Assembly (NCBI RefSeq): GCF_022879595.1
Contig: NZ_CP084265.1
Span: 2,790,001-2,854,000 of the forward strand
Source of the DNA: Caballeronia sp. Lep1P3
Lineage (GTDB): Bacteria > Pseudomonadota > Gammaproteobacteria > Burkholderiales > Burkholderiaceae
Direction of reading: 5' to 3'
DNA: 64,000 nucleotides
A model generated the notes under the pieces. It was given only the letters and a program-made list of their open reading frames with translations. It ran no database searches and had not been told where the DNA came from. This document shows positions 40,176-40,603 of this stretch, piece by piece. The position numbers were made by a program, and so were the translations under genes. How positions within the stretch are numbered: the stretch's first letter is position 1; the number at the start of each line of letters is the position of its first letter.

Positions 40176-40205
40176 TTGACACGCGCTCCAACGCTGGTTT
40201 AAAGT
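40176..40205 (+). promoter_or_regulatory. candidate sigma-70 promoter of the leuA leader
   Basis: TTGACA at 40176-40181 is a perfect -35; TAAAGT at 40200-40205 is a -10 at 18 bp. The start would be close to 40212, at the ATG of the leader peptide, so the leader mRNA may be leaderless or the true promoter is elsewhere. TTAAAG at 17 bp is an alternative -10. Confidence 0.5.
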
Positions 40206-40211
40206 GGACCG

Positions 40212-40289
40212 ATGCGTTTCACCCAGCCTTCCTCCCTCCGAATTATTTCGGGCCGCCTAGCGCGGCCCCTATCGCTACGTCTAGCGTAA
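40212..40289 (+). CDS. putative leucine leader peptide upstream of leuA
   Basis: A 25-codon frame, ATG 40212 to TAA 40289, encodes MRFTQPSSLRIISGRLARPL followed by SLRLA. It has five Leu: one CTC and four CTA (codons 16, 20, 22, 24), all four in the last ten codons, plus adjacent Ile-Ile. Neighbouring genes use mostly CTC and CTG for Leu, so the rare CTA run is conspicuous. Ribosome stalling here when leucyl-tRNA is scarce would control leuA by attenuation, as in enterobacterial leu operons. The following RNA has hairpin arms starting inside the last codons. No strong ribosome binding site is seen (GTGGA before the ATG). Confidence 0.7.
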   Translation: MRFTQPSSLRIISGRLARPLSLRLA

Positions 40290-40338
40290 GTCGCCGGACG
40301 TAGCGCCGTGCGTCGCGGGGTCTTCCCAGCACGCGCGG
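40274..40338 (+). promoter_or_regulatory. attenuator-like hairpins after the leucine leader
   Basis: GCTACGTC (40274-40281), overlapping the last Leu codons, is perfectly complementary to GACGTAGC (40297-40304). A second hairpin pairs CCGTGCGT (40306-40313) with ACGCGCGG (40331-40338) via one G-U, with inner GGG/CCC. A ribosome stalled on the CTA codons would cover the first arm. A further GC hairpin, GCCGGC twice (40534-40550), lies 53 nt before leuA. No clear T-tract follows any of them, so the terminator is not identified. The rest of 40339-40603 holds nothing else I recognise. Confidence 0.5.
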
Positions 40339-40603
40339 TCCTCCCAGCAGTTCCCGCAGTTCCTTTCCTTACACTTGTAGTCGTCAGCTTTCCGTTCGCG
40401 CATCCCGCGAAACGAGAACGCGAGGGTCACATGCACGCTGCTTCGCGCACGTTCACGTTGGTCGCAGGCGTCACCGTCGCCGGTGCGCAATGGGATCGCG
40501 CGCGTGTCGGCGCATCGGACGCATCGCGCCGCAGCCGGCCAGCCGCCGGCCACGGCCGCTCTCGCAGACGCTACGCAAACCGTCCTACGAGAGACCGACG
40601 ATC

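Follow-up and report, generated by a model that had tools for sequence, protein, structure and literature searches.

The region upstream of leuA in the stretch of DNA analysed here (64 kb of a 6.18-Mb genome, hereafter the window) is, on balance of the evidence, likely to be a leucine-responsive, ribosome-mediated attenuator of that gene. At its centre is uORF1, a leader ORF of 25 codons (40212-40289, plus strand). Direct support for this reading comes from the ORF itself, from its promoter, from the conservation of its CTA codons and of the hairpins associated with them, and from its linkage to leuA. Three general features of an attenuator are present, namely clustered codons for the product amino acid, leuA as the next gene downstream and a hairpin that covers the control codons. 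The layout is not that of a classical attenuator, and the leader differs from it in its predicted leaderless start and in having no visible terminator, but the core of the finding is right.

On its upstream side, the leader's neighbour is a ybiB-like gene, which faces it with its 3′ end and whose ORF ends at 40158. Downstream, leuA (40604-42256, plus strand) is assigned by profile matches as a 2-isopropylmalate synthase of the TIGR00970 type. Its product matches NF002991 over its full length with 799 bits (cut-off 455) and TIGR00970 with 708 bits (cut-off 697.4), and among the best 80 of 474 relatives, the nearest named ones are from Caballeronia species, with up to 91% identity. At an E value of 0.001, Pfam reports HMGL-like and IPMS_D2 domains for LeuA (window 40604-42253), without a further C-terminal domain. 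Beyond leuA, a PagL-type lipid A 3-O-deacylase (PF09411) is encoded on the minus strand at 42717-43445 and adjoins rpoH (43575-44570).

The leader ORF and its promoter

uORF1 encodes MRFTQPSSLRIISGRLARPLSLRLA, followed by a stop codon, and its 3′ end reads GGC CGC CTA GCG CGG CCC CTA TCG CTA CGT CTA GCG TAA. CTA occupies codons 16, 20, 22 and 24 of 25, which agrees with an earlier sequence-only reading of this DNA that had described a 25-codon leader with four CTA codons among its last ten. The same reading had called these codons out of keeping with a preference for CTC and CTG, and the counts bear this out: CTA accounts for 23 of 1,768 leucine codons (1.3%) and CTC plus CTG for 82% in the 47 long ORFs of the 64-kb window, from which alone the background usage was drawn. 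The binomial probability of at least four CTA among the five leucine codons of uORF1 is about 1.4e-7.

Comparison of leuA upstream regions in relatives, proposed in the sequence-only reading as the means of checking it, revealed conservation of both the CTA run and the hairpins, the lack of which in close relatives would have counted against that reading. Among the named loci examined, the best 80 of 474 relatives, 78 have a leader of the uORF1 type, as does the window. The exceptions are a Glaciimonas locus, L081, which has different CTA-rich ORFs, and a Cupriavidus locus, L082, with an ORF ending LDLPIGCRA. In all 79 leaders, the window included, uORF1 has 23-25 codons and a TAA stop and lies 222-341 nt from leuA. 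An alignment of 92 distinct sequences drawn from 117 instances, referred to here as A1, retains CTA at 365 of 368 positions (91, 92, 92 and 90 of 92 for the four codons in turn), and all three exceptions are CTG. Neighbouring codons vary synonymously, with Arg23 as CGT, CGA or CGC, Ala25 as GCG or GCC, and Gly14 as GGC or GGT. All 63 gaps within uORF1 are of 3 nt, and those past the stop codon are of many lengths. Third positions are the most variable in codons 14-25 of A1, and within Burkholderia and allies the C-terminal part of the peptide is conserved. Codons 2-13 show no excess of third-position variation across the 92 sequences, and the N-terminal peptide is therefore not evidently selected. 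The constancy of the first and second CTA codons is not explicable by pairing within the hairpins P0, P1 and P2 described below, because both codons are unpaired there. A separate observation concerns codons 9-11, CTC CGA ATT (40236-40244), which lie outside these hairpins and are almost invariant in A1 (CGA in 90 and ATT in 91 of 92); the leucine at codon 9 is encoded by CTC or CTT in 91 of 92 sequences and never by CTA, and no pairing partner emerged for the stretch.

Upstream of uORF1 is a promoter (40176-40205, plus strand) made up of TTGACA at 40176-40181, an 18-nt spacer and TAAAGT at 40200-40205, which ends 6 nt before the uORF1 ATG. It is the one promoter-like site found by a scan of the window leader, for which shuffled sequences gave a mean of 0.0. 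TTGACA is exact in all 79 loci, and the accompanying −10 element ends 6 or 7 nt ahead of the ATG in 78 of them and 9 nt ahead of it in the other. Scored for the match to TTGACA/TATAAT placed 4-9 nt before an ATG (maximum 12), all 78 named leaders reach at least 9, compared with 1 of 4,789 other ATGs of the same loci. Among 28 further leaders, 10 reach that score (L081, L153, L154, L158, L160, L162, L168, L169, L190 and L199, with Burkholderia-type leaders in L160, L162 and L199); the remaining 18 have scores of 0-8, and none of 434 control ATGs in this set scores 9 or more. Several of the 18 low-scoring leaders have TTGACA at a similar distance with no standard −10 element. The earlier suggestion that the leader might be translated leaderless thus gains from a promoter-ATG spacing that holds in all 79 loci, and a leaderless start of the uORF1 mRNA is a well-supported prediction from that spacing. 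Leaderless mRNAs have been reported for Burkholderia cenocepacia (PMC4603805) and Cupriavidus metallidurans (PMC7563307), and the main text of the former, a start-site paper, contains none of the terms leuA, leucine, attenuation and leader peptide.

Hairpins of the leader

Three consecutive hairpins are predicted in and immediately after uORF1. P0 (40250-40268, arms 40250-40256 and 40262-40268) lies within the ORF and carries the first CTA codon in its loop. P1 (40273-40305) pairs CGCTACGTC at 40273-40281, a 5′ arm that overlaps CTA codons three and four, with GACGTAGCG at 40297-40305. This hairpin had been recognized previously, although with an arm of 8 bp (40274-40281 with 40297-40304) that in fact extends to 9 bp. 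P2, a GC-rich hairpin, occupies 40306-40338, where a second hairpin had been placed, and is present, conserved and covarying in relatives.

In A1, P0 has 94.7% of its cells paired and 3 of 7 pairs changed on both sides, with the outermost pair broken in 25 of 92 sequences. The corresponding figures for P1 are 96.3% and 2 of 9, with the last pair broken in 17 of 92, and those for P2, of which the outer 4 pairs were counted, are 96.5% and 3 of 4. Taken together, 95.8% of 1,822 cells are paired, and 8 of 20 pairs and 98 cells carry two-sided changes, counts that are inflated by the kinship of the sequences and that refer to a structure drawn from those same sequences. In 500 shuffles, not one of the five measures was ever reached, and pairing drops to 24-58% when the structure is slid along the alignment. 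The structural evidence is comparative in nature, and by it the predicted hairpins P0, P1 and P2 are conserved and covarying. The folding energy of the whole leader taken alone is unexceptional (z −1.64; 6 of 100 shuffles fold as well). Just after P2 in A1, the near-invariance of a GGTCC element (40336-40341) extends past the bases that are paired, and CAGT-rich repeats come next, in the linker.

A further predicted hairpin, P3 (40393-40414, arms 40393-40400 and 40406-40414 with one bulge), rests on stability and conservation, as only one pair is doubly changed. Its mean z is −1.96 over 77 loci, 73% of which fall below −1, and it is mostly stronger in relatives than in the window; 88.4% of cells are paired among 29 distinct sequences of one length.

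Distribution of leuA leaders in the family

A covariance model built from a 135-position core of the leader gave one strong hit in its own genome, at 133.7 bits, the next reaching 19 bits (E 0.28). Of 150 genomes drawn from the family, 57, belonging to 6 of 25 genera, yielded a hit in a search with stricter filters by which weak matches were lost. Each genome has a single hit, including six with two listed leuA copies (G172, G188, G202, G216, G252 and G254). In the subset of 45 of these 57 hits for which leuA was mapped, all 45 are on the same strand as leuA and 284-421 nt upstream of it.

Leaders rich in CTA extend beyond this type. By a test for an ORF with at least 4 leucine codons in 12 and at least 2 CTA, with a threshold chosen after the leaders had been seen, 40 of 41 family leuA upstream regions pass (L140-L179 and L199), 9 of the 41 being regions that carry the Burkholderia-type leader. 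The controls that pass number 2 of 41 among the reverse complements, 6 of 354 among stretches elsewhere in the 64 kb and 10 of 73 among regions downstream of leuA. Of 19 regions from more distant families of the order (L180-L198), 1 passes. Several loci of L083-L111 and L203-L231 have CTG-rich leucine ORFs. LDLPIGCRA, LRLLARSTGLGPLLR and LLLARLDRLGLLAR are among the other leaders of the family, and as the leader sequences differ, what is shared is the codon, not the peptide. Two tandem CTA-rich ORFs are found in L081, L162, L168 and L169, and in L151 and L152 a second CTA-rich ORF, with 2 CTA, runs into leuA.

One ending recurs. An LPIGCRA leader (CTA CCG ATC GGY TGC CGG GCC) is common to L140, L141, L142, L143, L144, L146 and L147, where these codons are followed by a complementary GGCAGCC-type sequence; it looks like a second, independent type of leuA leader. 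In L211, from outside the order, the ORF upstream of leuA ends LLSLLRLPHGHRA, which resembles the LPIGCRA leaders and possibly represents a much older leader type.

From leader to leuA: possible outputs and known systems

In the mechanism that we propose, transcription would begin at or next to the ATG of uORF1, and the ORF would therefore be translated without a Shine-Dalgarno sequence. When charged tRNA-Leu for CTA is scarce, a ribosome would stall on CTA 2, 3 or 4 and, with any of these in its A site, would occlude P1 on its 5′ arm and hold that hairpin open; a stall at CTA 1 would melt P0 only, judging from the size of a ribosome footprint. When leucine is plentiful, the ribosome would reach the TAA and leave, and P1 and P2 would form. 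This state would lower leuA expression, most likely because the naked linker after P2 would load Rho, which would stop RNA polymerase before leuA.

The layout of ribosome-mediated attenuation that the sequence-only reading saw here holds as far as the leucine leader, the CTA run and the covarying hairpins are concerned; it does not extend to a conserved antiterminator or to refolding in our models. No candidate for a conserved antiterminator helix emerged among the relatives' leaders. An alternative helix, 40260-40266 with 40305-40311, is 96.0% paired but has one doubly changed pair, and 104 of 500 shuffles reach two of its five measures; a pairing between 40571-40575, close to leuA, and the 3′ arm of P1 is kept at 90% or more in the Caballeronia group only. 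Two ribosome states were modelled by partition-function folding of the 79 leaders with the stalled ribosome masked. Masking left the linker and the uORF2 and leuA start regions almost unchanged, the unpaired fraction of the linker being 0.49-0.52 in the Caballeronia group and 0.59-0.62 in the others across ribosome states. A terminator had been described as not obvious, in line with which the scan found 0 intrinsic terminators in the window leader (mean of shuffles, 0.6). Rfam gave no match to the leader at the gathering score or at E values up to 5, its sole hit in the 64-kb window being a tRNA at 28653.

Rho termination is the most economical output, since a C-rich linker is what remains when there is neither a U-tract nor a conserved competing helix. 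The linker (40339-40392, plus strand) is C-rich, G-poor and weakly folded, and is a candidate Rho loading region. A 78-nt segment that begins at 40322 contains 31 C and 15 G, which puts it at the 99.4th percentile of the window with both strands counted, and the 55 nt after P2 have a mean folding z of +0.52 over 72 loci. For the best such segment of each leader, the median C/G is 2.27 over 79 loci. The leader is more C-rich than the best segment internal to leuA in 65 of the 79, with the leuA-internal segment at least equal in 14, and in some Caballeronia loci, such as L006-L009, the most C-rich 78-nt segment is nearer to leuA than the linker is. The C-rich, G-poor, unstructured stretch that Rho would use is thus found before leuA. 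Given that attenuation is right, we regard a Rho-dependent output, which the sequence-only reading had also raised, as a guess with a serious claim, one that falls a little short of probable and that leaves unexplained how the stalled ribosome would prevent termination.

The same leader might instead act on translation, with its state altering access to the start of uORF2 or leuA. uORF2 (40431-40607, plus strand, 58 codons) is preceded by GCGAGG at 40420-40425, and its TGA overlaps the leuA ATG at 40604. Because of this Shine-Dalgarno-like motif and the overlapping stop, translation of leuA may be coupled to that of uORF2; in the Caballeronia group, GCGAGG is found in 32 of 32 loci and the overlap in 30 of 32. 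C-rich segments such as GGUCCUCC may pair with GAGG motifs and so control leuA; by eye, the GGTCC after P2 can pair with GAGGGTC, and the failure to find a terminator also suits such a mechanism. However, the accessibility of the uORF2 and leuA starts is the same in the free, stalled and stop states, and we found no uORF2 preceded by a Shine-Dalgarno sequence in Burkholderia sensu stricto loci, although uORF1 is kept there. We therefore regard translational attenuation as unlikely. The possibility that uORF2 is a selected protein was discarded, its codon-position entropies being flat and Pfam giving no match. The second ORF reads RSLLPLA in seven Paraburkholderia-group loci (L029, L030, L031, L034, L035, L036 and L037), and uORF2 of the Caballeronia group, the window included, is without a leucine run.

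Under intrinsic attenuation, P2 or P3 would terminate transcription despite the lack of a U-tract, and a short antiterminator that joins the 3′ arm of P1 to the 5′ arm of P2 would counteract it. Nearly all relatives have P2 as a GC-rich hairpin, and the window sequence allows the P1 3′ arm to pair with part of the 5′ arm of P2 at −6.2 kcal/mol. Yet this fold differs among relatives, with a mean z of −0.73 (n = 72), and neither the window scan nor the relatives' alignments contain a U-rich tract after P2 or P3, which makes the scheme quite improbable. It is more improbable still that a stalled ribosome, its stall site no more than about 75 nt from the predicted 5′ end, acts without termination by shielding the leuA mRNA from 5′-end-dependent decay, for which the conserved P1, P2 and linker would not be needed. 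An untranslated structured RNA, or an arrest peptide read by its sequence instead of its leucine codons, could draw on the strong RNA structure and on the C-terminal peptide of Burkholderia and allies, but is barely credible given the 3-nt-only gaps, the retention of CTA beside synonymously varying neighbours, and the peptides of other genera, unrelated except for leucine runs and still rich in CTA.

To return to attenuation through Rho, a wider reading, which is possible but distinctly speculative, is that leuA of the Burkholderiaceae would be governed by a leaderless leucine leader with a Rho output, with two leucine leaders in tandem in several lineages (uORF1 at the 5′ end and uORF2 beside leuA), and that uORF2 of Caballeronia, its stop overlapping leuA, would be a translational coupler left after loss of its leucine run. 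If this is true, leaderless initiation would belong to the sensing device. An attenuator at this site would mean that a large and well-studied family of bacteria has a leucine-sensing switch without an Rfam match. The conserved promoter-ATG spacing would offer a natural test of how leaderless translation keeps up with RNA polymerase in attenuation, and, as no terminator is visible, Rho-dependent amino-acid attenuation is directly testable at the leuA leader.

Proteobacterial attenuators were reportedly surveyed by Vitreschak and colleagues in 2004. In the literature that we searched, outside which most subscription papers lie, we found no account of a leuA leader from Burkholderia or related bacteria. 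The leuL leader of enteric bacteria is a short ORF with clustered leucine codons, CTA included, before leuA; the leader described here is alike in each of these respects and differs in having no U-tract terminator, no conserved antiterminator and no Rfam match, and in its predicted leaderless start. With tnaC, mgtL and corL, which are Rho-dependent leader-ORF attenuators responding to other signals, it has in common a leader ORF, the lack of an intrinsic terminator, a C-rich stretch and a long leader, the part of Rho being a proposal in our case.

A leader peptide that lacks a ribosome binding site has a precedent in ilvBNC of Corynebacterium glutamicum, where the transcript begins one nucleotide from the start codon of the leader (PMC11857589). 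The model for that operon differs from ours in its gene and amino-acid codons and in its terminator and antiterminator hairpins (PMC11857589). The actinobacterial LEU element likewise has leucine codons within a structured stretch ahead of leuA and no classical terminator (PMC1262725). In the account given of that element, the Shine-Dalgarno box is the partner of the leucine codons, and a pseudoknot has been put forward (PMC1262725), whereas here their conserved partner is 40297-40305, about 300 nt before leuA.
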